Positions 1-59,506 of a DNA stretch of 64,000 nucleotides are shown piece after piece. The notes below the pieces were generated by a model that saw nothing but the letters and a program-made list of their open reading frames with translations, searched no databases and had not been told where the DNA came from. A program made the position numbers and the translations under genes. Location of the stretch: assembly GCF_900108025.1 (NCBI RefSeq), contig NZ_FNUS01000001.1, forward strand, positions 496,001 to 560,000. The letters are read 5' to 3'. Source of the DNA: Halpernia humi (GTDB lineage: Bacteria > Bacteroidota > Bacteroidia > Flavobacteriales > Weeksellaceae). Numbering within the stretch: position 1 is the first letter of the stretch; each line of letters begins with the position of its first letter.

Positions 1-2519
1 GGGAATTTTTTCGATTTTAAAATGGCGTACGCGTAAATACTTAATTGTAAAGCTTGCGCCATTTTTTTGTTCATTAAAAGACTTTCAATTTTATCTTCTT
101 TTGGTTTCAAAAATAAATTTGTGGCTTTTTTAGTTTTATAATCAATAATTCGCAATTCGCCATTCAACCGGTCTACTCTATCAATGAAACCGTAAAAATA
201 AATATTTTCTGACTCTGAAATTGGGAATTCTACATTTTCAACACGCATTTCCAAATCGATAATTTCCAGTTGATTTCCTTTTTTAATTAAATTCAAATCA
301 TAATTTAAAATATCCGTCACTACCCTTTTCGCAATTGATTTGTGAATGTAATTCATCCCAGAATTATAAAATTCTTTCTCGTGATTTAACGTTTTAATAG
401 CGTCATCTAAAGATGCATCTACTTGTTTAAGTAAATCTTCTAAATTACTTTCTTTCAACGTTTTACCAATAACATTTTTATATAAAAAATGCAAAGCAAA
501 ATGCACTAAATTTCCATAATTTCTTTGTGAAAGTTCTTCTTCTACAGAATCTTCAGAACGTGTTTTTAAAATTTGTGACAAATAAAAATCTACCGGATTC
601 CAAAGATAATTTACCAAATGCGAGGCGGAAACCCGCGTTTTCCAAACTTCTAATTTATCTAAAACTTCATCGGTTTTTTCTAAAATAATTCCATCTTGAT
701 TAACAGGTTCAATACTGTTTTCAACCACTAAATGTTCAATATTTAAACCGCTTTCAATCTCTAATTGTGTGATAAATCTGCTTTTTTCGCCCGTATTTAA
801 GCCTGAACTTAAAGCGTTGTAAAGTAAGTACACATTTTTAGAATCTTGCAGTAATCGGTAAAAATGATACGCATAAATACTGTCATTTTCTAAAAAAGTA
901 TGTAAATTAAATTCTCGACGAACATCAAACGGCAAATACGTGTTTTGCGAATTTCCAAGGGGTAATTTTCCTTCGTTTACTGAAACTAAAATAATATTTT
1001 CAAAGTTTAATAAACGCGTTTCTAAAAGTCCCATTACTTGCAAACCTTGCAGCGGTTCACCTTGAAAATCAATACTTTCTGAATTTACCAATTGATTAAT
1101 TAAAACCTCCAAACTTTCGACATCCATTTCAAAATGATAATCATTCAGTTGGTTTTGCAGTGTTTTAAAAACCTTTTCAAAATGAGAAATATTTTCATAA
1201 ACAATATCATCCAAAGGTTGAAATTTTAATTGAAAGCAGTAATTTATTAAATTAAGCAACAATTCTTTAGCAGATTTTTTTTGAAATAAATTAAAATAAC
1301 TTAAACCCGAAAGCTCGCTTTCTAATCTATTTTTTGCAATATAGATGATATTTCTTTCCAGTAATAATTTTTTAAAATTTTGAATTAAAATTTCATCTTC
1401 TGGTGATTTTGGAAGTTCTTCTAAAATCGGTAAAACATCTTTATAATAGTAAGAATTTTGGTTTTTTTGAAGTTGTTTTTGAAGATGAAAAATTTTCTTC
1501 ATCGCATTCGAAAAGCCTAGATTTTTTAGCGGAAAACCCATTGTAATATTAATGCGTTCAATACTGCTTAAAGCATCTAAAGTCGGCGGTAAAAGGTTTT
1601 CATCTAAAAGTACGACCGCGGTTTTAGTAAAATCAAAATTAGAACTATTATTATTTGAAAGTTCAGAAAAAATTTCAGGAAGCAATTTTGTTTGCGAAAC
1701 ATTACCCGAAACTTCAAATATTTTTATATTTTTTTCTGATTTAAAGTCATTTTCTATCCAAGTAAATTCTCGACTATCATTAAATTCTGGCCACTTTTTA
1801 TGCTCACGTAAGAATTTTCCAGATTCTTGGCGCGCGTCGTTCATATAATAATTATCGGCTTGAAAATAGCAAATGGCTTTGTCCCATTTCAGTAATTCTT
1901 TCACTAATTTTTGCTCGACTGGCGTAAAAGCGTTAAAACCGCAAAATACAAAGTTTTCATTTGTATTTTGAGCAAAATCTTGAACTTTATTTTTTACGAT
2001 TTCGTGCAACATTCCCGCAGTTGCGTAATTTTTTTCTTGTAATTTTAACTTTAAAAGAGGCAAAAAATTTCTTTGTTTTCGCCAAAAGTTTAGAAATTTA
2101 TTTCTCGGGTTTTCTTCTTCCGCGTTTAAGTTTTCTGCCCAATTTTTTATGCGCTCTTCATCAAACATAAAATCTAAAACCGCAAGATCCGACTCGGAAA
2201 ACTTGAGTATATCGTCCCAATCTTTTAAAACCGTAGGAAACCATTTTAGAAAATTTCCAAAATCTTCATCGTATTGCGTTTTATAAATTTCATACGCGAA
2301 AAGCCACATCGCAATTCCATTAATTTGTTGCTTACCGGAAATATTTTTTAATAATTCTTCTATGGTGTAAAACTCTGGTAAAAAGCCAGAATAGGCTTTT
2401 TCTTGCAGAATTTTTTTGATAAAAACGACTGGTCTTTTTCCGGGTAAAACTAATGTGAACTTCGATAAATCAACGTTTTTTTGAAGTAAATCGTCGATAA
2501 TTTTGTTTAGAAATTTCAT
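1..2519 (-). CDS. PD-(D/E)XK nuclease family protein (AddB/RecB-like), partial
   Basis: The frame is open from ATG at 2519 through the left edge, so the C-terminus is missing; about 839 residues are visible. The protein resembles the Bacteroidota RecB/AddB-type nuclease-helicase proteins thought to act in double-strand break repair. The N-terminal part has no good Walker A motif. Near the visible end is a PD-(D/E)XK nuclease core: GFIDRVDRL followed by RIIDYKTKK, where the D of IDYK and the following K are the expected catalytic residues. The motif GLLETR about two thirds along resembles helicase-type motifs of AddB. A 170-base gap separates it from rsmG on the same strand. The family is confident; whether the helicase half is active cannot be judged here. 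Confidence 0.85.
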   Translation of the reverse strand, partial: MKFLNKIIDDLLQKNVDLSKFTLVLPGKRPVVFIKKILQEKAYSGFLPEFYTIEELLKNISGKQQINGIAMWLFAYEIYKTQYDEDFGNFLKWFPTVLKDWDDILKFSESDLAVLDFMFDEERIKNWAENLNAEEENPRNKFLNFWRKQRNFLPLLKLKLQEKNYATAGMLHEIVKNKVQDFAQNTNENFVFCGFNAFTPVEQKLVKELLKWDKAICYFQADNYYMNDARQESGKFLREHKKWPEFNDSREFTWIENDFKSEKNIKIFEVSGNVSQTKLLPEIFSELSNNNSSNFDFTKTAVVLLDENLLPPTLDALSSIERINITMGFPLKNLGFSNAMKKIFHLQKQLQKNQNSYYYKDVLPILEELPKSPEDEILIQNFKKLLLERNIIYIAKNRLESELSGLSYFNLFQKKSAKELLLNLINYCFQLKFQPLDDIVYENISHFEKVFKTLQNQLNDYHFEMDVESLEVLINQLVNSESIDFQGEPLQGLQVMGLLETRLLNFENIILVSVNEGKLPLGNSQNTYLPFDVRREFNLHTFLENDSIYAYHFYRLLQDSKNVYLLYNALSSGLNTGEKSRFITQLEIESGLNIEHLVVENSIEPVNQDGIILEKTDEVLDKLEVWKTRVSASHLVNYLWNPVDFYLSQILKTRSEDSVEEELSQRNYGNLVHFALHFLYKNVIGKTLKESNLEDLLKQVDASLDDAIKTLNHEKEFYNSGMNYIHKSIAKRVVTDILNYDLNLIKKGNQLEIIDLEMRVENVEFPISESENIYFYGFIDRVDRLNGELRIIDYKTKKATNLFLKPKEDKIESLLMNKKMAQALQLSIYAYAILKSKKF

Positions 2520-2692
2520 TAAAGAATTTGGGTATTAGTTAAAAGGGAATTTTTAAATTTAAGAAAAATACATCAAAAATCTTTATTTTGGCGCAAGTTT
2601 TTATCCAAAAAATAAGCAATAGTTCTTTTTTCTTTGAAAATTAAAATAAATACTTTTAAAGTTAAAATGCTAAGTAAAACTTGAAGAATTAT

Positions 2693-3328
2693 TCACGAAT
2701 TAAAATGCCCTTTTGAAAGATAAACCACTTTTTTAGTTTCAAAAAATTCTTCGTCGAAATAATTTTTTAATTGAAAAATTTCTGCTTTTAAACCTTGTAA
2801 TTCTTCTCCTAAATCGCCACCTTTTAAGTATAAAACGCCATTGTGTTTTGTATTGATCTGTTCTTTTTCAAATTTTCCTTTTAACCAGCGCAAAAAAACA
2901 GGCATTTGTGTAACGGCTCTACTTACTACAAAGTGAAATTTTTCTTTAATATTTTCTGCTCGTTCATGCTTTGCCACAACATTTTCTAACCCTAAACTTT
3001 CGGCAACTTCTTTCACAACCGTAATTTTTTTACCGATTGAATCTACTAGAGTAAAAGAACTTTCGGGAAATAAAATAGCGAGTGGAATGCCTGGAAAACC
3101 GCCGCCAGTACCAATGTCTAGTATTTTTGTATTTGGTGAAAACGCCATAACTTTTGCAATTCCCAACGAATGTAAAACGTGTTTTTCGTAAAGCGAATCT
3201 AAATCTTTGCGAGAAATTACATTTATTTTTTCATTCCAATCTTTATATAAGTCTTCTAAAAGTGTGAATTGCTGAATCTGTTTTTCAGAAAGATCCGGGA
3301 AATATTTTAAAATTAAATCTACTGACAT
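2693..3328 (-). CDS. rsmG: 16S rRNA (guanine-527-N7)-methyltransferase
   Basis: RsmG (GidB) methylates N7 of G527 in 16S rRNA with S-adenosylmethionine. The 211-residue length is typical. The SAM-binding loop LDIGTGGGFPGIPLA lies at about residues 70-84, and the family's N-terminal helix region, with WNEKINVISR at 31-40, is present. The ATG at 3328 follows a Bacteroidota -7 box TATTTTTG (3346-3353, minus strand), giving a short leader. It is transcribed divergently from the aminotransferase at 3423. Confidence 0.95.
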   Translation of the reverse strand: MSVDLILKYFPDLSEKQIQQFTLLEDLYKDWNEKINVISRKDLDSLYEKHVLHSLGIAKVMAFSPNTKILDIGTGGGFPGIPLAILFPESSFTLVDSIGKKITVVKEVAESLGLENVVAKHERAENIKEKFHFVVSRAVTQMPVFLRWLKGKFEKEQINTKHNGVLYLKGGDLGEELQGLKAEIFQLKNYFDEEFFETKKVVYLSKGHFNS

Positions 3329-3345
3329 TAATATTTTTTATTGAA

Positions 3346-3406
3346 CAAAAATAATGGTTTTTCTTTGAAATGAAGCGCCTTAACTGAAATCTAATTTTTA
3401 TATTTG
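3346..3406. promoter_or_regulatory. Divergent promoter region of rsmG and the aminotransferase
   Basis: Two Bacteroidota -7 boxes face away from each other: TATTTTTG on the minus strand at 3346-3353 (rsmG) and TATATTTG on the plus strand at 3399-3406 (aminotransferase, 16 bases before its ATG). Neither has a convincing TTG at -33. Confidence 0.5.
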
Positions 3407-3422
3407 TTAAAAATAAATTTCT

Positions 3423-4628
3423 ATGAATCAATTTTCAGAACGGTTAAATCGTTTGAGTTTTTCCCAAACTTTTGTAATGAGTAACAAGGCGCGCGAAATG
3501 AAAGCCAAAGGATTGGATGTTATCAGTTTAACTTTAGGTGAGCCAGATTTTGACGTGCCACAGAATATAAAAGAAGCAGCACACAGAGCGATTGATGAAA
3601 ATTACAGCCATTATTCGCCGGTTCCGGGTTTTATGGAACTTCGGCAAGCAGTGAGCAACAAACTAAAAAGAGATAATGAATTAGACTACAAACCTTCACA
3701 AATTTGTGTTTCTAATGGAGCAAAACAGGCAATTATAAACGTTTTTGCGGCAATTTTAAATCCAGGCGACGAAGTTATTGTTCCTGCGCCATACTGGGTA
3801 AGTTATGATGAAATGGTGAAAATGATGGATGGAACTTCGGTTTTCATTAAAACAGATTATACCACAGATTTTAAAATGACGGCCGAGCAATTAGAAAATG
3901 CAATTACGCCAAAAACCAAAGCAATTTTGTATAGTTCGCCCTGCAATCCATCTGGAAGTTATTACACTTATGAGGAATTGAAATCTTTAGCCAAAGTAAT
4001 TGCGAAATATCCAAATATTACAGTAATTTCTGATGAAATTTATGAATTCATCAATTATGAAACAAAACATGTTTCAATCGCACAATTTCCAGAAATAAAA
4101 GAACAGGTTGCCATCATCAACGGAATGTCTAAAGCATACGCGATGACTGGCTGGCGAATTGGTTATTCTGCCTGTTCAGAATCATTATCTAAAGCCTGCG
4201 AAAAAATACAAGGACAAATGACAAGCGGCGCAAATACAGTTGCGCAAAGAGCTGCAATTACTGCTTTAGAAACAGATCCCGCAGAATATCATTTCATGAT
4301 TGAAGCCTTCCAGAAAAGACGTGATTTGGTTTTTGATTTGTTAAAAGACATTAAAGGTTTTAAAATCCTTTTACCAAAATCGGCTTTTTACTGCTTTCCA
4401 GATATTTCTTTCTACATCGGTAAAAAATTAGATGGCGTGGAAATAAATAATTCTGACGACTTTGCTATGTTTTTACTTGAAAAAGCAAATGTAGCAACTG
4501 TTGGAGGTGTATCTTTTGGTAGCCCAGAATGTTTTAGAATTTCTTACGCGGCTTCAGAAGAAACTCTGAAAGAAGCGATGAAAAGAATTAAAGATTGTTT
4601 GGAAACTGCAGAATTAGCAAATATTTAA
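3423..4628 (+). CDS. Class I PLP-dependent aminotransferase (aspartate aminotransferase)
   Basis: This 401-residue cytoplasmic protein belongs to fold-type I aminotransferases, subgroup I-gamma, which move the amino group of aspartate (and sometimes other acids) to 2-oxoglutarate. Visible landmarks are NPSG at 175-178, DEIY at 204-207, and the PLP Schiff-base lysine K237 in the SKAYAMTGWRIGY block; the conserved substrate-binding arginine lies in the FRISYA segment near the C-terminus. ATG at 3423 lies just downstream of a TATATTTG box. It appears to be monocistronic. Prephenate or kynurenine aminotransferase activity cannot be excluded from sequence alone. Confidence 0.9.
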   Translation: MNQFSERLNRLSFSQTFVMSNKAREMKAKGLDVISLTLGEPDFDVPQNIKEAAHRAIDENYSHYSPVPGFMELRQAVSNKLKRDNELDYKPSQICVSNGAKQAIINVFAAILNPGDEVIVPAPYWVSYDEMVKMMDGTSVFIKTDYTTDFKMTAEQLENAITPKTKAILYSSPCNPSGSYYTYEELKSLAKVIAKYPNITVISDEIYEFINYETKHVSIAQFPEIKEQVAIINGMSKAYAMTGWRIGYSACSESLSKACEKIQGQMTSGANTVAQRAAITALETDPAEYHFMIEAFQKRRDLVFDLLKDIKGFKILLPKSAFYCFPDISFYIGKKLDGVEINNSDDFAMFLLEKANVATVGGVSFGSPECFRISYAASEETLKEAMKRIKDCLETAELANI

Positions 4629-30133: not shown

Positions 30134-30182
30134 TTAACAAGTAAAAAGGTAAAAGTAAAAAGTAAAAAGTAAATTTGAAAAA

Positions 30183-30530
30183 TTATAAGTTTGTATTTTT
30201 TACTATAGCTCCAAATATCTTTTTAATTTCAAGGCTTTCTTTTAATAGTCTATCTAATTCTAAATTTTTATCATCTAATAATTCCTTCAAAACGCGTAGC
30301 CAATAATTAGATTCTCTTGCTTCTTTTAGGCAAATCTTGCATTTATTTTTAAAATCTGCTTTTGATGATCCTGCTTGAGCTTCTTCATAATTTGTGCCAA
30401 CAGAGGTTGATGATTTACTCAATTGAAAAATTAGCATTTTAAATTCGGGCTCTCAAGGAAGTGTTCTCAAAAGTTTTAAACAATGAATCCCAAAGAAAAA
30501 GGTTCGGTCTAGTAAATTATATTCTTTCAT
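30183..30530 (-). pseudogene. Four helix bundle (S23/IVS-type) protein gene with in-frame nonsense codon
   Basis: From ATG at 30530 the frame encodes a full-length member of the S23 family (115 codons: MKEYNLLDRTFFFG..., then KSSTSVGTNYEEAQ and LKEARESNYWLRVL), but codon 26 is TGA (30455-30453). The rest is intact to the natural stop at 30183, so the damage is a single base change. A protein of 84 residues could start at ATG 30437 but would lack helix 1. S23 proteins are encoded by intervening sequences of 23S rRNA and by many free-standing loci; their function is unsettled. Confidence 0.8.
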
Positions 30531-30572: not shown

Positions 30573-30625
30573 GCATATATTTTCAATATTTCAAGACTTT
30601 TTACTTTTGCCTTTTACCTTTTTTC

Positions 30626-31684
30626 TTAAAGAATTAGCATCGCATCGCCATAAGAGTAAAATTTATACTCATTTTTTACGGCTTCTTCATACGCCTCCAT
30701 CAAGAAATCTTTACCTGCAAATGCGGCAATCATCATCATTAAGGTAGATTTTGGCATGTGAAAGTTGGTAATCATTGATGTCGCTACACCAAAATCATGG
30801 GGTGGAAAAATGAATTTATTTGTCCAACCATGAAAAGGTCCAATTTTTTTATTTGATGAAACGGAAGTTTCAATTGCGCGCATTGTAGTAGTTCCAACGG
30901 CACAAATTTGTCTTCCTTCTTCTACTGCTAAATTAATTTTATCAGCGTTCAGTTGGTCAATAATGGCTTCTTCAGATTCCATTTTATGTTTAGAAAGATC
31001 TTCAACTTCAATTGGGTTAAAAGTTCCCAGGCCAATATGCAAAGTCACTTCTGCAAAATCCACACCTTTAATTTCTAATCTTTTCATTAAATGTTTTGAA
31101 AAATGCATACCCGCAGTTGGCGCTGCAACAGCACCTTCATTTTTTGCATAAATGGTTTGGTAACGTTCTGCATCTTCGGGTTCTACATCTCTTTTGATGT
31201 ATTTTGGAAGTGGTGTTTCACCTAATTCTTTTAATTTAGCACGGAATTCTTCGTAAGAACCATCGTATAGAAATCTTAAAGTTCTACCACGAGAAGTGGT
31301 ATTATCAATCACCTCGGCCACTAAACTTTCGTCTTCGTTGAAAAATAGTTTGTTTCCGATTCTAATTTTTCTAGCAGGATCTACCAAAACATCCCAAACT
31401 CGGGTTTCTTTGTCTAATTCTCGTAGTAAAAAAACTTCAATTTTAGCACCCGTTTTTTCCTTATTTCCATATAATCTAGCTGGGAAAACTTTGGTATTAT
31501 TAAAAATAAAAAGATCTTTTTCTTCAAAATAATCTATCACATCTTTAAAAAGTTTGTGCTCGATTTTACCAGTTTTTCGGTGAAGCACCATTAGTTTGGA
31601 TTCATCACGGTTATTTGCAGGATGTTCTGCCAAAAGATGTTCTGGCAAATGAAAATTGAAGTCTGAAGTTTTTAATTTCGACAT
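30626..31684 (-). CDS. queA: S-adenosylmethionine:tRNA ribosyltransferase-isomerase
   Basis: QueA adds the epoxycyclopentane precursor to 7-aminomethyl-7-deazaguanine in tRNA, the penultimate step of queuosine synthesis. The 352-residue protein shows the family blocks [40 protein letters not shown] and [17 protein letters not shown]. Length and start (31684) are normal. No other queuosine gene is adjacent. Confidence 0.95.
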
Positions 31685-44438: not shown

Positions 44439-44534
44439 TGTTGGTTTTAACGCAAAGGCGCAAAAATTATTTTATGTCTTTTGAATAAGGCGCAAGTCGG
44501 CATCGCCGATTGGAACAAGTGTAATATTATAAAA

Positions 44535-44912
44535 TTATAATCCATTTACCACTCTATTTACGCCATTTTTAAATACATCTGTTCCGAAATAAATGAGTAA
44601 TCCTAATTTGCAACCGGTCAATTTTAAATAAGTTAAAAGTTGTGCTTTATGAATATTATTTGACATTTCTAAGGCTTTTATTTCTAAAATTAAAATATCT
44701 TCAACAATGATATCAATCTTAAAAGCATTTTCAATTCGTAATTCATCATAAACAATTGGTAAAACTTTTTGTTTTTCTACTTTTAAGCCTGCCTTTTGCA
44801 ATTCGTAAAAAAGACATTCTTCATAAACTTTTTCAAACAATCCAGCGCCTAATCTTTTATGAATTTTTAATCCAAGTTCAAAAACAATTTTTGACAATTC
44901 GTTTTCTCTCAT
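44535..44912 (-). CDS. GxxExxY protein
   Basis: A 125-residue protein with the name-giving motif GLFEKVYEECL (GxxExxY) at about 23-33 and a PD-(D/E)XK-like core, KIDIIVEDILILEIKAL, whose D-x-ExK pattern (Asp, then Glu-Ile-Lys) resembles a nuclease active site. The family is common in Bacteroidota and of unknown function. It lies inside a unit with inverted GGCGCAA-type ends, and a decayed relative lies at 50.9 kb. No signal peptide or membrane segment. Confidence 0.85.
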   Translation of the reverse strand: MRENELSKIVFELGLKIHKRLGAGLFEKVYEECLFYELQKAGLKVEKQKVLPIVYDELRIENAFKIDIIVEDILILEIKALEMSNNIHKAQLLTYLKLTGCKLGLLIYFGTDVFKNGVNRVVNGL

Positions 44913-44936
44913 AATACTTTAAAAAAAGTCAATCAC

Positions 44937-45159
44937 AAAGTTATAAAATATTCCAATCGGCGAAGCCGACTTGCGCCTTATCTTGACTATTATTTTAAAT
45001 GCAATTGCGCCTTTGCGAAAAAATTCATTACAATTCTTTGTGTTAAAATTTATACTGAACATTTCATTTCAAAGATATAAAATATTCCAATCGGCGAAGC
45101 CGACTTGCGCCTTATCTTGACTATTATTTTAAATGCAATTGCGCCTTTGCGAAAAATTT
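44937..45159. repeat. 134-bp-period tandem duplication of the element right end
   Basis: About 87 bases at 44937-45023 recur with only one or two differences at 45071-45159. The near-identity indicates a recent duplication. Confidence 0.85.
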
Positions 45160-52237: not shown

Positions 52238-52690
52238 ATGAAAGGAAAAAATAATGAGAAAGTAGAGAATGTTGACTTAATATTGAAATCAACTTGGTTA
52301 GCTGTGTCTAAAATGTATAGTGAACTGGCGCAAGAATATGATTCTACCGCTGTGCAAGCACTTACACTTTTAAAAATTGATCCAAAAGAAGGCACAAGAA
52401 GCACCAATCTTGGACCGAAAATGGCAATAGAACCAACGTCTTTGACACGCATCATTAAATTACTAGAAGACAATGGTTATATCTACAAAGAAAAAACTAC
52501 AACCGATAAACGCGAAGTCATTATCAAATTAACAGAAAAAGGTTTGAATTCTAGAAATATGTCCAAAGAAGTCGTGGTAAACTTCAATAAAAAAGTAATG
52601 GATAAAATTTCGCCTGAAAAGTTGGAAACCTTTAAGCAAGTGATGTCGCAAATTTTAAAAATTGCAAACGAAATAAATAACAAAAAATAA
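52238..52690 (+). CDS. MarR family transcriptional regulator
   Basis: A 150-residue winged-helix regulator: helical dimerisation ends, recognition region GPKMAIEPTSLTRIIKLLEDNGYI and wing TTDKREVIIKLTEKG. It is the first gene of the beta-oxidation operon and is separated from the fadN-like gene by 5 bases. Family members respond to small ligands; by context an acyl-CoA or aromatic acid is likely. Two TATGCATGCATA palindromes lie at its promoter and one at etfBA. Confidence 0.93.
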   Translation: MKGKNNEKVENVDLILKSTWLAVSKMYSELAQEYDSTAVQALTLLKIDPKEGTRSTNLGPKMAIEPTSLTRIIKLLEDNGYIYKEKTTTDKREVIIKLTEKGLNSRNMSKEVVVNFNKKVMDKISPEKLETFKQVMSQILKIANEINNKK

Positions 52691-52695
52691 CAAAT

Positions 52696-55101
52696 ATGAA
52701 CAGACATATCAAACATGTAACTGTTTTGGGTTCGGGAATTATGGGTTCCGGTATCGCAGCACATTTCGCCAACATCGGCGTTCAGGTGCTTTTGCTGGAT
52801 ATCGTTCCCTTTGAACTCACCGAAGCAGAGACCAAAAAAGGTCTTACGAAAGAAAGCAAAGTGGTAAGAAACAGAATTGCCACTGAGAATTTTGTAAAAT
52901 TACAGAAATCGAGCCCTGCTCTACTTTATTCGCCAAAATTTGCAGACCGAATTTCGATCGGGAATTTTGATGATGATTTAGAGAAAATAAAAAATACTGA
53001 CTGGATTATTGAAGTGGTGGTTGAAAGACTTGACATTAAAAAATCGGTTTATGAGAAAATTGAACAATTCAGAAAACAGGGAACTTTAGTTTCTTCAAAC
53101 ACATCCGGAATTCCGATTCATTTCCTAATTGAAGGTAGAAGCGACGATTTTAAAAAATATTTTGCAGGAACACACTTTTTTAATCCCGTAAGATATTTAC
53201 CGCTTTTGGAAATAATTCCAACAAATGACACCGATCCGGAAATCATCGATTTTTATATGTCTTATGGCGCAAAATTTTTAGGAAAAACGACAGTTTTAGC
53301 CAAAGATACACCTGCTTTTATTGCAAATAGAATCGGTGTTTTTTCAATGATGAACTTACTGCATATCGTAAAAGATTTAGGTTTAAGCGTTTCAGATGTC
53401 GATAAATTAACCGGACCAATTATCGGTCGTCCGAAATCAGCGACTTTTAGAACTGCGGATGTTGTTGGTTTAGACACTTTGGTTCACGTTGCCAAAGGTG
53501 TTCAAGAAAGCGGAACGGAACAAGAAATGTTTCAAAAAGGTTTTGCGATGCCATCATATATTGATTTTATGATGGAAAAGAAAATGCTTGGTTCTAAAAC
53601 CGATGGCGGATTCTACAAGAAAATAAAAAACGCAGAAGGAAAACCAGAAATTCAAGGATTAAACCTTGAAACTTTAGAATACGAACTTCAAGGGAAAAAT
53701 TCTTTTCCAAGTTTAGAATTAACTAAAAATATCGACCGCCCTTTAGACAGATTTAAAGTTTTAATTAACGGAAAAGATAAAGCCGGTGAACTTTACAGAA
53801 AATCTTTAGGCGCTTTGTTCGCTTACGTGTCGCATAAAGTTCCGGAAATTTCTGACGATATTTATAAAATTGATGATGCTCTTCGCGCCGGTTTCGGTTG
53901 GGAAAATGGCCCTTTCGAAATTTGGGATGCGGTTGGAATTGAAAAAGGAATTGAATTGGCAAAAGCAGAAGGTTACGAAGTTTCTGACTGGGTTAAAAAT
54001 CTAGCCTCAAAAAATCTAACTTTTTATAAAGTAAATGAAGAAGGACAAAGCACTTTCGTCAATAAAGATTCAGGTGAATATTCAAAAATTCCGGGGCAAG
54101 ATTCTTTTATAATTTTAGATAATATCAGAAAAAATAAAACACTTTGGAGCAATTCCGAAGCGCAAATTCAGGATTTAGGTGATGGAATCATCAATTTTGA
54201 AATCAAATCTAAAATGAATTCTCTTGGTGGTGGCGTTTTAGACGGCTTAAACCGCGCAATTGATTTAGCAGAAAAAGATTATGACGGTTTGGTTATAGCA
54301 AATCAAGGAACTAATTTTTCTGTTGGAGCAAATCTTGCAATGATAATGATGATGGCAGTTGACCAAGATTGGGACGATTTGAATATGGCAATCGCTTATT
54401 TCCAAAAATCCATGATGCGCGTTCGTTATTCTTCAATTCCAGTTGTAGTTGCACCTTTCGGGATGACGTTAGGCGGCGGTTGCGAAATGACAATGCACGC
54501 AGACAGAGTTGTTGCAGCGGCAGAAACTTATATCGGTTTGGTGGAAGTTGGCGTCGGTGTAATTCCCGGCGGAGGCGGAACTAAGGAAATGACTTTACGA
54601 ACTTCAAGAGATTTCCACAGTGATGATGTTAAAAATAACCGTATGCGTGATGCATTTATGAATATTGCAATGGGAAAAGTAGCCACTTCCGCTTACGAAG
54701 CCTACGATATGGGAATTTTAGAACACGGAAAAGACATTGTAGTTGTTAATAAACAAACACAAATCAAAACCTCAAAAATGCTCGCATTAAGTTTAGCAGA
54801 ACTAGGTTATACGCAACCAATCGAGCAAAAAGTAAAAGTTTTAGGAAAAGATGCTTTAGGAATGTTTTATGTAGGAACCGACCAAATGTTGGCAGGAAAT
54901 TATATTTCTGAACACGACAAAAAAATCGCTGATAAACTGGCTTACGTAATGGTCGGTGGAAACCTTTCCGAGCCAACAATTGTAACAGAGCAGTATTTAT
55001 TGAATCTAGAAAGAGAAACTTTCCTTCAACTTTGTGGCGAAAGAAAAACTTTGGAAAGAATTCAGTTTATGTTGCAAAAAGGGAAACCGCTTCGTAATTA
55101 G
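52696..55101 (+). CDS. 3-hydroxyacyl-CoA dehydrogenase / enoyl-CoA hydratase (FadN-like fusion)
   Basis: An 801-residue bifunctional beta-oxidation enzyme. The domain order is dehydrogenase first (NAD loop GSGIMGSGIAAHFA at 12-25, HFFNPVRYLPLLE, SNTSGI) and enoyl-CoA hydratase at the C-terminus (GGGCEMTMHADRVVAAAE, IGLVEVGVGVIPGGGG), the FadN order of Bacillus, not the FadB order. It is followed by thiolase and acyl-CoA dehydrogenase genes, with S23 elements in both gaps. Confidence 0.94.
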   Translation: MNRHIKHVTVLGSGIMGSGIAAHFANIGVQVLLLDIVPFELTEAETKKGLTKESKVVRNRIATENFVKLQKSSPALLYSPKFADRISIGNFDDDLEKIKNTDWIIEVVVERLDIKKSVYEKIEQFRKQGTLVSSNTSGIPIHFLIEGRSDDFKKYFAGTHFFNPVRYLPLLEIIPTNDTDPEIIDFYMSYGAKFLGKTTVLAKDTPAFIANRIGVFSMMNLLHIVKDLGLSVSDVDKLTGPIIGRPKSATFRTADVVGLDTLVHVAKGVQESGTEQEMFQKGFAMPSYIDFMMEKKMLGSKTDGGFYKKIKNAEGKPEIQGLNLETLEYELQGKNSFPSLELTKNIDRPLDRFKVLINGKDKAGELYRKSLGALFAYVSHKVPEISDDIYKIDDALRAGFGWENGPFEIWDAVGIEKGIELAKAEGYEVSDWVKNLASKNLTFYKVNEEGQSTFVNKDSGEYSKIPGQDSFIILDNIRKNKTLWSNSEAQIQDLGDGIINFEIKSKMNSLGGGVLDGLNRAIDLAEKDYDGLVIANQGTNFSVGANLAMIMMMAVDQDWDDLNMAIAYFQKSMMRVRYSSIPVVVAPFGMTLGGGCEMTMHADRVVAAAETYIGLVEVGVGVIPGGGGTKEMTLRTSRDFHSDDVKNNRMRDAFMNIAMGKVATSAYEAYDMGILEHGKDIVVVNKQTQIKTSKMLALSLAELGYTQPIEQKVKVLGKDALGMFYVGTDQMLAGNYISEHDKKIADKLAYVMVGGNLSEPTIVTEQYLLNLERETFLQLCGERKTLERIQFMLQKGKPLRN

Positions 55102-55515
55102 ATATTAGATATTAGAAGTTAGATGAAAACGCATAGATTAAAAGAGTTACTAATTTGGAAGAAATCAATGCTTTTAGTTAAAGATATTTATCTATTAACT
55201 GAGCATTTTCCTTCAAATGAAAAATTTGGACTCATTTCACAGATCAGAAGATGTGCGGTTTCAATTCCTTCTAATATTGCTGAAGGCGCTGGCAGAAATA
55301 ATCCAAAAGAATTTTATCAATTTTTAGGAATTGTAAACGGTTCCAGTTATGAATTAGAAACACAATTAATTTTATTAGTTGATTTAAACTTCAAAAGTGA
55401 AGAAGAAATTCACCCTTTATTAAATATTATAACAGAAATTCAAAAGATGATTTATAAATTCAAAACAAATTTAATGACAGGTTAATGTCTAACTTCTAAC
55501 CTCTCATTTCTAATC
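55099..55515 (+). mobile_element. S23 element (b), inverted-repeat-flanked, intact gene
   Basis: The left end TTAGATATTAGATATTAGAA (from 55098) continues GTTAGA. The right end, read in reverse, has TTAGAGATTAGAAATGAG followed by GGTTAGAAGTTAGA. The shared inverted core is TTAGAAGTTAGA with more TTAGA units outside. The unit lies between the fadN-like and thiolase genes. Confidence 0.6.
55123..55485 (+). CDS. Four helix bundle protein (S23/IVS type)
   Basis: A 120-residue helical protein of the S23 family (opening LKELLIWKKSMLLVKDIYLL; core SQIRRCAVSIPSNIAEGAGR; EFYQFLGIVNGSSYELETQL). The family is encoded by intervening sequences of 23S rRNA and by many unlinked loci; a relative, Avd, helps diversity-generating retroelements, but no reverse transcriptase is present here. 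It is intact, unlike the two other copies in the window, and lies inside the fad operon. Confidence 0.9.
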   Translation: MKTHRLKELLIWKKSMLLVKDIYLLTEHFPSNEKFGLISQIRRCAVSIPSNIAEGAGRNNPKEFYQFLGIVNGSSYELETQLILLVDLNFKSEEEIHPLLNIITEIQKMIYKFKTNLMTG

Positions 55516-55531
55516 TCTAAACTAAAAAAAA

Positions 55532-56716
55532 ATGTCAAAACAAGCATATATAATTAAAGGTTACAGAACCGCAGTCGGAAAAGCACCGAAAGGTTCGTTA
55601 AGATTTACAAGACCAGATACAATGGCAGCAACCGTAATTGAAAAATTAATGGCAGAAGTTCCACAACTAGATAAAAACAGAATCGACGATTTAATCGTCG
55701 GAAACGCAATGCCAGAAGCCGAACAAGGTTTAAATGTGGCGCGTTTAATTTCATTAATGGGGTTAAATACCGACAAAGTTCCGGGCGTTACTGTGAACAG
55801 ATATTGCGCTTCAGGAAGTGAAGCGATTGCGATCGCATCCGCAAAAATTCAAGCCGGAATGGCAGACTGTATCATCGCAGGTGGAACAGAATCCATGAGT
55901 TATATTCCGATGGGTGGTTACAAACCCGTTCCACAAAGTGATTTCGCAAAATCAAACCCAGATTATTATTGGGGAATGGGTTATACGGCAGAAGAGGTTG
56001 CAAAACAATATAAGATTTCAAGAGAGAAGCAGGATGAATTTGCTTTCCACTCGCACGAAAAAGCCTTAAAAGCCAATGCAGAAGGCAGATTTAAAGACCA
56101 AATCGTTCCAATTCCAGTCGAATATACTTTCCTAAACGACCAACAAAAATCTGAGACCAAAAAATTTGATTTTTCCGTCGATGAAGGACCAAGAGCCGGA
56201 ACTTCCATGGAAGCCTTGTCAAAATTGCGCCCAGTTTTCGCCAATGGCGGAAGCGTTACTGCAGGAAATTCCTCACAAATGAGCGACGGTGCAGCATTCG
56301 TAATTGTAATGTCTGAAGACATGGTGAAAGAATTAGGTTTGGAACCTCAAGCGAGATTGGTGGCTTATGCAGCCGCTGGTTTAGAACCAAGAATTATGGG
56401 CATGGGTCCACTTTACGCTGTTCCAAAAGCCTTAAAACAGGCGGGTTTAGAATTAAAAGATATTGATTTAATTGAATTAAATGAAGCATTCGCCTCACAA
56501 TCTGTGGCTGTGATGAATGAATTAAATTTAAATCCAGAAATCGTAAACGTAAACGGTGGCGCAATTGCACTTGGACATCCGCTTGGTTGCACGGGAACAA
56601 AATTAACTGTCCAATTATTAGACGAAATGAAAAAACGCGGCAACATGAAATATGGAATGGTAACCATGTGCGTAGGAACCGGACAAGGTGCAGCGAGTAT
56701 ATTTGAGTTGCTATAA
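55532..56716 (+). CDS. Acetyl-CoA C-acyltransferase (beta-oxidation thiolase)
   Basis: A 394-residue thiolase with nucleophile Cys92 in NRYCASGSEA, the His motif in ALGHPLGCTG and the second Cys in MCVGTGQGA, plus LNEAFASQ. It cleaves 3-ketoacyl-CoA to acetyl-CoA and a shortened acyl-CoA (FadA function). It is third in the marR-fad operon, with S23 units on both sides. Confidence 0.95.
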   Translation: MSKQAYIIKGYRTAVGKAPKGSLRFTRPDTMAATVIEKLMAEVPQLDKNRIDDLIVGNAMPEAEQGLNVARLISLMGLNTDKVPGVTVNRYCASGSEAIAIASAKIQAGMADCIIAGGTESMSYIPMGGYKPVPQSDFAKSNPDYYWGMGYTAEEVAKQYKISREKQDEFAFHSHEKALKANAEGRFKDQIVPIPVEYTFLNDQQKSETKKFDFSVDEGPRAGTSMEALSKLRPVFANGGSVTAGNSSQMSDGAAFVIVMSEDMVKELGLEPQARLVAYAAAGLEPRIMGMGPLYAVPKALKQAGLELKDIDLIELNEAFASQSVAVMNELNLNPEIVNVNGGAIALGHPLGCTGTKLTVQLLDEMKKRGNMKYGMVTMCVGTGQGAASIFELL

Positions 56717-57125
56717 AATTTTAGATTTTAAATTATAAATTTTAAATGAGATGAGTTTCAAAGAAGATAATGTAATTCAGATAAAGACCTTTGATTTTGC
56801 TTTGCAGATTATAAAATTTTACACTGTTTTCAAATCTCAAAATGAATTTATTTTATCTAAACAAATTCTTCGATGTGGTACGTCGATAGGGGCAAATGTA
56901 GAAGAAGCAATCGCAGCGCAATCTAAAAAAGATTTTATTTCCAAATTATCAATTGCAAATAAAGAAGCGAGAGAAACCAAGTATTGGCTAAAACTTTACA
57001 AATCTTCTAACCTAATTAATGTAGAAGTTGATTGCTAATTAAAAGAAATTGAAAGTATAATCAATATTTTAACAAAAATAATTAAAACATCATCTCAAAA
57101 TTTATAATTAAAATCTAACACAATT
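56716..57125 (+). mobile_element. S23 element (c), inverted-repeat-flanked, broken gene
   Basis: Left end AGATTTTAAATTATAAATTTT then AAATGAGATGA (56723-56755); right end, reversed, AGATTTTAATTATAAATTTT then GAGATGA (57091-57116). That is an inverted repeat of about 30 bases with small gaps. The right flank carries further TTTAAAATTTAAAATCTATAA repeats of the same kind before the next ATG. Confidence 0.7.
56751..57107 (+). pseudogene. Four helix bundle (S23) protein gene with in-frame nonsense codon
   Basis: The S23 frame (DNVIQIKTFDFALQIIKFYT, LRCGTSIGANVEEAIAAQSK, NKEARETKYWLKLYKSS) meets TAA at codon 96 (57036-57038), where relatives have tyrosine before LKEI. Translation past it continues LKEIESIINILTKI in frame to a TAA at 57105-57107. 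A single base change therefore removed the last helix. A 95-residue product is still possible. Confidence 0.8.
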
Positions 57126-57159
57126 TAAAATTTAAAATCTATAATTTAAAATTAATACA

Positions 57160-58929
57160 ATGAGTAATACTAATAAAGGCGGCGAGTTCTTAATCAAGCA
57201 AACGCCTGCACAAGAAATTTTCACCTTAGAAAATTTATCAGAAGAACAAAAAATGATGCGAGATTCTGCTAAAGAATTTATCGACAGAGAAGTCGTGCCA
57301 AAACACGACAGATTTGAGCATAAAGATTATGCTTTAACCGAAGAAACCATGCGAAAACTCGGTGAAATGGGCTTTCTTGGTGTTACCGTTCCAGAGCAAT
57401 ATGGCGGTTTAGGAATGGGTTTCATCACTACTCTATTAACTTGCGATTACATTTCTGGTGGAAACGGCTCTTTGGCAACCGCTTTTGGTGCACATACCGG
57501 AATCGGGACTTTACCAATTTTGCTTTACGGAACCGAAGAACAAAAAAATAAATATTTACCAGATTTAGCAACCGGAACAAAATTCGGCGCTTATTGCTTG
57601 ACCGAACCAGACGCCGGTTCTGATGCAAATTCTGGAAAAACAAGAGCAAAACTGTCTGAAGACGGAAAACATTACATCATCAACGGACAAAAAATGTGGA
57701 TTTCTAATGCAGGTTTTGCGGAAATTTTCATTGTTTTTGCCAAAATTGATGATGATAAAAACATCACTGGTTTCATCGTAGAAAAAGAAGGAGCTGAAGG
57801 TTTATCTTTCGGAGAGGAAGAACACAAATTGGGAATCCGCTCTTCTTCCACCCGCCAAGTTTTCTTTAACGATATGAAAGTGCCGGTAGAAAACCTTTTG
57901 GGAGAAAGAAACAACGGATTTAAAATCGCTTTAAACTCTTTAAATGTTGGTAGAATTAAATTGGCCGCAGCAAATATTGACGGACAACGACGTATTTTCG
58001 GTCATGCTGTAAAATACGCCAATGAAAGAAAACAATTTGGTGTTTCTATTTCCACTTTTGGAGCAATCAGAAAAAAAATAGCCGAAATGGCAACAGGTAT
58101 TTTTGTGAGCGAAGCCGCAACTTACCGCGCTGGGAAAGACGTTCAAGATAAGATTGATGAATTAATAGCCGGTGGAATGGGCCATCAAGAAGCCGAACTA
58201 AAAGGTGTGGAAGAATTCGCAGTTGAATGTTCAATTTTAAAAGTTTTTGTTTCAGATCTTACGCAACATTCTGCAGATGAAGGCATTCAGATTTATGGTG
58301 GAATGGGCTTTTCCGAAGACACACCAATGGAATCTGCGTGGAGAGACGCCAGAATTGGCAGAATTTACGAAGGAACAAACGAAATAAATAGATTGCTTGC
58401 AGTTGGAATGTTAATCAAAAAAGCCATGAAAGGCCAACTAGATTTAATGGGACCTGCAATGGCGGTGAGCAAAGAATTAATGGGAATTCCATCTTTTGAA
58501 ACACCAGACTATTCTGAATTTATGTCAGAAGAAAAAGCAATTATAGAAAACCTGAAGAAAGTTTTCTTGATGGTTTCTGGTGCTGCGCTTCAGAAATTTA
58601 TGGCCGATATTGAAAAACAGCAACATTTATTATTAAATGCTTCAGAGATTTTGAACCAAATTTATATGGCAGAATCTACAGTTTTACGTGCAGAAAAAAG
58701 TTTTGATGCCGATTCAGTAGAAGCAGCCATGGCAAAATTAAACCTTTACAAAGCCACAGAAAAAATTATTGAAGCAGCAAAAGAAGGCATAATTTCTTTT
58801 GCAGAAGGTGATGAACAAAGAATGATGCTTTCCGGTTTACGAAGATTTACAAAATACACCAACACACCAAATGTGATCGCTTTAACTGAAAAAATTGCAG
58901 CGCATTATGTTGAAAAAGGTGCTTACTAA
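57160..58929 (+). CDS. Acyl-CoA dehydrogenase (FadE-like)
   Basis: A 589-residue FAD-dependent dehydrogenase for the first beta-oxidation step. It has the acyl-CoA dehydrogenase core (CLTEPDAGSDANSGKTRA, MWISNAGFAEIFIVFAKI) with the catalytic glutamate in RIYEGTNEINRLL near 405-417, and a C-terminal extension of about 170 residues found in the FadE/VLCAD-like branch. Electrons go to ETF, encoded at 38.7-40.5 kb. It ends the operon before a bidirectional terminator. Confidence 0.94.
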   Translation: MSNTNKGGEFLIKQTPAQEIFTLENLSEEQKMMRDSAKEFIDREVVPKHDRFEHKDYALTEETMRKLGEMGFLGVTVPEQYGGLGMGFITTLLTCDYISGGNGSLATAFGAHTGIGTLPILLYGTEEQKNKYLPDLATGTKFGAYCLTEPDAGSDANSGKTRAKLSEDGKHYIINGQKMWISNAGFAEIFIVFAKIDDDKNITGFIVEKEGAEGLSFGEEEHKLGIRSSSTRQVFFNDMKVPVENLLGERNNGFKIALNSLNVGRIKLAAANIDGQRRIFGHAVKYANERKQFGVSISTFGAIRKKIAEMATGIFVSEAATYRAGKDVQDKIDELIAGGMGHQEAELKGVEEFAVECSILKVFVSDLTQHSADEGIQIYGGMGFSEDTPMESAWRDARIGRIYEGTNEINRLLAVGMLIKKAMKGQLDLMGPAMAVSKELMGIPSFETPDYSEFMSEEKAIIENLKKVFLMVSGAALQKFMADIEKQQHLLLNASEILNQIYMAESTVLRAEKSFDADSVEAAMAKLNLYKATEKIIEAAKEGIISFAEGDEQRMMLSGLRRFTKYTNTPNVIALTEKIAAHYVEKGAY

Positions 58930-58975
58930 ATTATTCACCCAAAATCCTGACAAAAATTTTACTTTACTTTTAAAC

Positions 58976-59007
58976 AAAAAAATGAGGTCTTTTTGGACCT
59001 CATTTTT
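58976..59007. terminator. Bidirectional terminator between fadE-like and hsp20 genes
   Basis: AAATGAGGTC-TTTTT-GGACCTCATTT stem with A-run and T-run flanks. Confidence 0.88.
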
Positions 59008-59029
59008 AATGCAAAGGAAAATTATTTAA

Positions 59030-59506
59030 TTACGAAATTTCAATACTTCTTGGTGCTTTTTTCTTTGCCTCTTCTTTTTTCGGCAACGAAATGCTTAGAA
59101 TTCCGTCCGTATAATTGGCATTTATAAATTCATCTTCTACAGTCTCTGGTAAATTAAAAGTTCGTTTAAAAGACGAAAAACCAAATTCTCTGAAAGTATA
59201 ATTTTCATCGTGTTTTTCATGATTTTCTTTGCTTTCAGCGGAAATCGATAAAATACCATTGTCAACTTCAATTTGGAAATCTGTCTTTTTCAGTCCAGGA
59301 ACAGCCATTTCCAGAGAAAAAGAATCCGCAGTTTCTTTGATGTTTACTTTCGGAAGAGACATCCCGGTATTAAAATTAGAGTTAAAAACTGACGGTAAAT
59401 CTCTAGTAAAGATTTCATCTAGAAAATCACTTAAATTTCTAAAATTTACATTTGAATTTGTTTTTGTTAAAGTTCCGTTTTTAGGAACAGTCATTAAATT
59501 GCTCAT
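59030..59506 (-). CDS. Small heat-shock protein (Hsp20/alpha-crystallin family)
   Basis: A 158-residue holdase chaperone that binds unfolding proteins. The alpha-crystallin domain spans about 50-145 (PKVNIKETADSFSLEMAVPG, FSSFKRTFNLPETVED, YTDGILSISLPKKEE with the terminal-type motif) and the C-terminus carries the IXI-like RSIEIS. It converges with the fadE-like gene. Upstream, 140-180 bases away, lie two tandem copies of a 20-base T-rich repeat. Confidence 0.93.
   Translation of the reverse strand: MSNLMTVPKNGTLTKTNSNVNFRNLSDFLDEIFTRDLPSVFNSNFNTGMSLPKVNIKETADSFSLEMAVPGLKKTDFQIEVDNGILSISAESKENHEKHDENYTFREFGFSSFKRTFNLPETVEDEFINANYTDGILSISLPKKEEAKKKAPRSIEIS

Follow-up and report, generated by a model that had tools for sequence, protein, structure and literature searches.

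In the genome of Halpernia humi, small S23 genes lie between inverted repeats in both gaps of a beta-oxidation operon, which raises the question of what kind of element they form and what their ends do. The stretch concerned (assembly GCF_900108025.1, contig NZ_FNUS01000001.1, positions 496,001 to 560,000) is 64,000 nucleotides (nt) long and is called the window below. It holds three such units: units 1 and 2 in the gaps of the beta-oxidation operon and unit 3 in the queA-rlmN gap. S23 (TIGR02436/PF05635) is a widespread protein family of unassigned function. Each unit consists of an S23 gene and two inverted arrays of 7-nt repeats (heptads); it extends from about the stop of the gene before it to near the start of the gene after it, and its sites are polymorphic among relatives. 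We see about an even chance that the unit is a compact intervening element between operon cistrons, akin to the intervening sequences of 23S rRNA that encode S23. The anatomy and the kinship to these rRNA sequences, taken by themselves, are highly probable.

A sequence-only reading of the window had described an S23 gene framed by inverted repeats, in the direction of the operon, in both beta-oxidation gaps, and a third one with a different end pair in the queA-rlmN gap. The arms and the PF05635 matches confirmed both descriptions, and the neighbours of unit 3 were identified as QueA and RlmN by profile match. The 7-nt period, the skew of G and C in the ends and the layout at the six S23 genes outside the window had not been seen in that reading.

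Inverted heptad arrays around the S23 genes

Chance inverted repeats are a concern in AT-rich DNA, and the arms of unit 2 are nearly pure A/T. An ungapped scan for inverted pairs with arms 250-900 nt apart was applied to 464 kb, made up of the window and 20 stretches of 20 kb and containing all nine S23 genes of the assembly. It gave 37 matches, which included seven of the nine S23 units; L005 and L007 were not recovered. The sequence-only reading had proposed that S23 genes be compared with other genes for flanking inverted repeats. Enrichment was found: an end-pairing score of at least 18 was reached by 71 of 118 distinct S23 units and by 24 of 576 other open reading frames (ORFs) of the same loci. 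These 118 were not drawn at random: most are the top-scoring matches from 120 genomes of the family Weeksellaceae, to which the thiolase loci and two units of other families in the order were added. The count leaves out identical copies and units whose ends were not closed. The interrupted L009, which was not picked up by the profile search, is outside the set; the broken L113 contributes two fragments, and L005 contributes one. The minimum-energy fold paired the ends in 78 of 113 whole units and in 32 of 208 short control genes, from which genes with strong ends were excluded. The S23 ends are terminal inverted repeats from which a long stem can form.

The best lag within the arms was 7 in 74 of the 83 S23 units with an end score of at least 16. 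Furthermore, the 464 kb contain 25 arrays of period 7, against 0-5 for each other period from 4 to 12 nt. The inverted-pair scan, the end scores, the period of 7, the folding and the array counts all contradict an origin by chance, and the same layout is present in GC-rich genomes. The chance explanation was rejected on these grounds, and the probability we leave to it is negligible.

The 5' arm is rich in G and poor in C (23% and 6.5%), and the reverse holds for the 3' arm. When 136 arrays were aligned by phase, the 110 usable ones showed a common RGW core with G at one position in 89%. The entropy of the aligned arrays was 10.65 bits, as compared with 11.27-11.40 bits in all eight column-shuffled nulls. 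There are four to five copies per array as a rule. Both arms of a unit carry the same heptad in inverted form: the similarity was 0.69, against 0.43 in the direct orientation, which matched better in 4 of 72 units. In the same 72 units, the similarity to heptads of other genomes was 0.59 at the same site and 0.47 at other sites. The ends had been described earlier as private to each unit. This is true of their letters, but the 7-nt period and the RG motif are shared.

In the window, the arms of unit 1 are 27 nt long and 85% complementary, and those of unit 2 are 31 nt long and 87% complementary (Table 1). The 5' arm of unit 1 and the stop codon of the preceding fadN-like gene overlap. The S23 frame that is shortened in unit 2 is open in the sister species G001 (locus L033). 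PF05635 is the sole family matched in the S23 units; it has nine matches in the H. humi genome and seven in G001. By eye, the same layout recurs around the six remaining S23 genes in H. humi, only faintly at L005 and L007, and around those of G001. An Rfam scan of 52400-59200 with E values up to 1 gave no match.

Table 1. Positions of the S23 units, their host genes and a separate heptad array in the window
Feature	Positions	Strand	Match or remark
fadN-like host gene, 3-hydroxyacyl-CoA dehydrogenase / enoyl-CoA hydratase	52696..55101	+	PF02737, PF00725, PF00378
Unit 1, 5' arm, TTAGANN-type heptads	55097..55123	+	inverted repeat I3; lag-7 array
Unit 1, S23 gene (four-helix-bundle, 23S_rRNA_IVP), intact, 120 aa	55123..55485	+	PF05635 E 4.9e-39; TIGR02436
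Unit 1, 3' arm, reverse-complement type of the 5' arm heptads	55488..55514	+	inverted repeat I3
Thiolase host gene	55532..56716	+	PF00108, PF02803
Unit 2, 5' arm, A/T-rich heptads	56717..56747	+	inverted repeat I2; lag-7 array
Unit 2, S23 gene, shortened by an internal TAA	56751..57038	+	PF05635 E 5.2e-24
Unit 2, 3' arm	57123..57153	+	inverted repeat I2; lag-7 array
Acyl-CoA dehydrogenase host gene	57160..58929	+	PF02771, PF00441 and others
Unit 3, outer arm, RlmN side	30139..30170	-	inverted pair; lag-7 array 30135-30173
Unit 3, S23 gene, one internal TGA	30216..30512	-	profile match at contig positions 526216-526512; PF05635 in ORF 30186-30437
Unit 3, outer arm, QueA side	30596..30627	-	inverted pair
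Heptad array with no S23 gene, immediately before a minus-strand start codon	38072..38111	-	

Placement in operon gaps and turnover at the sites

In the family set, both flanks could be called for 117 units, and all 117 lie between co-directional genes and in sense with them, as compared with 192 of 300 control genes. The neighbours are long ORFs, called mechanically. Units of one site are not independent, and grouping by the downstream gene gave about 33 sites (21 with at least two units and 12 with one). The effective sample is therefore smaller, but the placement is still strong. The stop codon before S23 was TAG in 46 of 106 cases, against 94 of 508 genes, and the 5' arm started at a median of 5 nt past the first base of the upstream stop (75 units). 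This means that the S23 element abuts or supplies the stop.

A comparison with empty gaps in relatives had also been proposed, and it showed that the gaps are polymorphic. Among 28 readable fadN-thiolase gaps, 14 were short (13-73 nt) and seven held S23 units, each about 435-540 nt long; several of the remaining gaps held S23-less heptad hairpins or other elements. In one genus with 23 genomes, the same gap was short in four and carried one of three S23 types in 11; seven had REP-like or presumed IS200-like elements, and one had another ORF. In the thiolase-dehydrogenase gap of this genus, three S23 types were found in nine, five and five genomes and another ORF in four. The S23 types of this survey were told apart by their first residues, and the other labels were given by eye. 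No target-site duplication was readable from the empty and filled gaps.

The two arms of a unit match each other better than the 5' arm matches 3' arms found at that site in other genomes: the observed sum was reached in 0 of 2000 permutations (21 sites). This excess holds at the level of the heptad and not at that of heptad order. At a site presumed by eye to be metH-like, the heptads were wholly different in two sister genomes (L004 and L032), yet they were matched inside each. Sites with long-resident units lie before genes that we assume to be groEL- and carB-like. The labels argD, hisB and DUF1016 were likewise recognised by eye and are presumptive.

Kinship to rRNA intervening sequences and the case for RNA cutting

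The kinship of the S23 gap units to the intervening sequences of 23S rRNA is well supported. In Azospirillum, an S23 gene (L170) is inside the 23S rRNA gene: the Rfam match extends over 1277-4475 and S23 is at about 2480-2839. The ends of this insertion carry GAGGACG-type heptads, like the S23 units of mRNA gaps. For the 23S intervening sequence of Coxiella, the published account describes a 28-bp terminal stem with tandem GACAGAT heptamers and a cut by RNase III at the first repeat (PMC4990558). The Coxiella element resembles the present units in its S23 gene of about 360 nt, its inverted-repeat stem, its end heptamers and its sense orientation to the host transcript (PMC4990558). The heptad ends join the mRNA units to the rRNA intervening sequences and are unlikely to be common to both by accident. 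Unlike the Coxiella element, the present units lie in mRNA gaps, several different ones occur per genome, and their cutting is putative (PMC4990558). S23 is under strong purifying selection here (median dN/dS 0.085 over 192 non-independent pairs), whereas the Coxiella ORF is judged in its paper to be decaying (PMC4990558). The window units themselves are between protein genes and not inside a 23S rRNA gene.

The layout is found in other phyla as well. In the best 80 of at least 589 S23 loci from many phyla, 53 had strong ends, with a period of 7 in 43, 8 in seven, 9 in two and 10 in one. The 8-nt period was observed in some Flavobacterium and in one Brucella genome (L226, L237, L248 and L249). 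The strands of the mechanically called neighbours were ++ in 55 of the 80 loci, +- in seven, -+ in six, -- in one and undecided in 11, a count that is unreliable in GC-rich genomes. For plasmids, 16 of 28 records with S23 were opened. Most of these units showed a period of 7, with the types GGGAGTA, AAAAGCT and GGAACAG in cyanobacteria, and 10 of the 14 annotated S23 genes of cyanobacterial plasmids were in sense between co-directional genes. On such plasmids, S23 units were also seen between CRISPR-associated genes (cas6/cas4 and cas10/cmr3; L164 and L171) and beside cas6 and cas4 (L167).

By analogy with rRNA, the operon transcript would fold at the unit ends into a stem. RNase III, the gene of which is present in the genome, would cut this stem as published for rRNA intervening sequences, so as to release the S23 segment and separate the flanking cistrons. 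Such a cut would do little harm because it falls between genes. S23 has relatives in 2gsc and 2rld, each with five chains, and might then bind the heptads of its own element. We consider that cutting in mRNA may or may not occur with equal probability, and that it is possible but somewhat doubtful that S23 binds its own heptads. Should the cutting take place, small passengers between cistrons would split the operon transcripts of many bacteria.

Several observations weigh against the proposal of RNA cutting. Between the arms, the family set had 96 G.T and 150 A.C mismatches and the broad set had 69 and 65, so that there is no excess of G-U pairs. Shuffling of the heptad order in the 3' arm left complementarity unchanged (18.77 against 18.48, p 0.34, n=99), and five units were below 0.05 where five were expected. 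The ends closed on the antisense strand in 89 of 113 units, against 78 of 113 on the sense strand. In addition, the sole assembled 23S gene of the genome (2773 nt) is uninterrupted. On the cyanobacterial plasmids, three of the 14 annotated S23 genes run antisense to a pair of co-directional neighbours, and one has its right-hand neighbour on the opposite strand. Strict sense placement is therefore a property of the Weeksellaceae set and not of all units.

Selection of the stem base by base at the RNA level was dropped as an explanation, since the mismatch, shuffle and strand tests gave it no support. The two inverted arrays retain a common heptad rather than any specific helix. As a result, covariation is no argument for cutting by RNase III. 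Cutting may still be compatible with these results, since the stems form in silico. The sequence-only reading had taken the units for intervening-sequence-like elements in mRNA. Its pattern proved true and the kin was rightly guessed; its mechanism is partly supported, in that the enriched inverted ends, the co-directional gaps, the 23S insertion with the same ends, the Coxiella heptamers and the polymorphic gaps agree with it, and the missing trace of pairing selection and the antisense plasmid genes do not.

The same tests bear on the alternative that the unit is a mobile or recombining element at the DNA level. The heptad arrays would then be terminal inverted repeats on which S23, or a transposase acting in trans, operates, and the RNA stem would be a by-product. 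The match between the arms might be caused by arm-to-arm copying or by one protein recognising one heptad. The lack of a G.U excess, the strand-symmetric folding and the heptad order that is not mirrored favour this alternative, as does the occurrence of different S23 types with different heptads in one gap of the genus with 23 genomes. Close S23 relatives at different sites also tend to share heptads: the similarity was 0.57-0.62 above 60% S23 identity and 0.46-0.50 below it. Moreover, the other two-ended genes of the genome are endonuclease- or transposase-like. However, such an element would be expected in antisense, convergent or divergent placement as well, which was found in none of the 117 units of the family. 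It would also be a unit without a transposase and without a readable target-site duplication. A DNA-level element is considered unlikely.

The other alternative is an operon regulator, in which a ring of S23 on the phased RG heptads of the intercistronic RNA would control the stability or translation of the neighbours. A comparable case is TRAP, which binds spaced NAG triplets. The phased RG in mostly four to five copies, the strict intercistronic placement, the purifying selection, the long residence at some sites and the five chains in 2gsc and 2rld are in line with such a role. On the other hand, the heptad type does not follow S23 similarity overall. The idea that heptads reflect deep S23 phylogeny was rejected for the same reason (Spearman -0.04, with values as high in 168 of 200 permutations). 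The gaps in relatives are often empty or occupied by other elements, which argues against a needed regulator, and two of the three window units have an interrupted S23 gene. A regulatory role thus seems improbable.

Whichever process acts on the ends, the simplest reading is that S23 would be a protein useful to the element, for example in binding heptads. It was found in 103 of the 120 genomes sampled from the family. S23 is distantly related to Avd of diversity-generating retroelements (NF033474, E 1.4e-4), but the score of 22.2 bits falls far short of 80, the curated cut-off. Among the named neighbours of S23 units there was no reverse transcriptase, for which no dedicated search was made.

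Heptads without S23 and other two-ended genes

Seven of the 25 period-7 arrays in the 464 kb adjoin S23; of the other 18, 16 are intergenic and two are inside coding sequences. These two (L020:12518-12549 and L014:19475-19509) are read as short repetitive peptides. An S23-less heptad hairpin at L014:18872-19055 fills its gap from the stop codon to the next start codon. The orphan heptads look by eye like arms of S23 units of this or the sister genome. A contrast between genomes is weak. A total of 400 kb from four genomes without S23 gave no heptad array, and 400 kb from five genomes with one or two S23 genes gave three, all of them in one genome. Another 400 kb from five genomes with at least eight S23 genes gave 13 arrays (8, 3, 2, 0 and 0). 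The number of S23 genes and that of heptad arrays gave a Spearman coefficient of 0.50 (p 0.07), and arrays of other periods gave 0.48 (p 0.08). The genome-wide link between S23 and heptad arrays is suggestive only.

The S23 ends are 7-nt tandem intergenic repeats of the kind seen in cyanobacteria and Xanthomonas. Heptameric repeats of the types GGGAATC in Xanthomonas and GGGGA(T/C)T in Nostoc are described in one report (PMC4692102). The Xanthomonas repeats resemble the present ones in their 7-nt unit, mostly four copies and intergenic position, and 70 and 75 convergent pairs are given for two Xanthomonas genomes (PMC4692102). They differ in that S23 is not mentioned in the main text of the report on the Xanthomonas and Nostoc repeats (PMC4692102). 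TAACTGA heptamers of Beggiatoaceae, Cyanobacteria and Bacteroidetes are likewise 7-nt tandem repeats near start codons, with indels in steps of 7 nt, but they are direct and not inverted, and the accessible portion of their paper contains neither "s23" nor "intervening" (PMC4679880). No paper linking S23 to heptamer repeats was found in the open-access literature; subscription journals were mostly outside this search.

The S23 gene with inverted heptads might be the protein-coding form of one element family that spans many bacterial phyla and occupies both intercistronic gaps and 23S rRNA. The short tandem repeats of cyanobacteria, GGGAATC of Xanthomonas and TAACTGA would be its S23-less derivatives or relics, and S23 would be a ring protein that reads phased RG heptads. 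We offer this wider proposal tentatively and hold it more doubtful than not. The shared anatomy joins the function of S23, the heptamer repeats of cyanobacteria, Xanthomonas and Beggiatoaceae, and the rRNA intervening sequences. The strongest new points are the 7-nt period with its phased RG, the strict placement between cistrons, and the connection with rRNA intervening sequences as well as orphan heptamers.

RAYT/REPIN and IS200-type elements also have a small gene between hairpin ends, together with gene-less derivatives; their ends are palindromic and their protein is a transposase. They use the same operon gaps as the S23 units. The S23 units differ from them in having heptad arrays as ends and PF05635 only, with neither a Y1 transposase nor palindromic ends.

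Other genes framed by inverted pairs in the 464 kb were of the GxxExxY, GIY-YIG and IS200-like kinds; the names GIY-YIG and Y1_Tnp come from profile matches. A GxxExxY gene (TIGR04256, PDDEXK_3) lies in the window at 44485-45115 between long GC-rich inverted ends, and six more GxxExxY loci of the genome have inverted ends. The sequence-only reading had suggested that GxxExxY genes be checked along with S23: inverted ends were present at the seven loci examined, but a clear 7-nt period was not. At L015:133-572, a GIY-YIG gene has near-perfect inverted ends that enclose a small palindrome.

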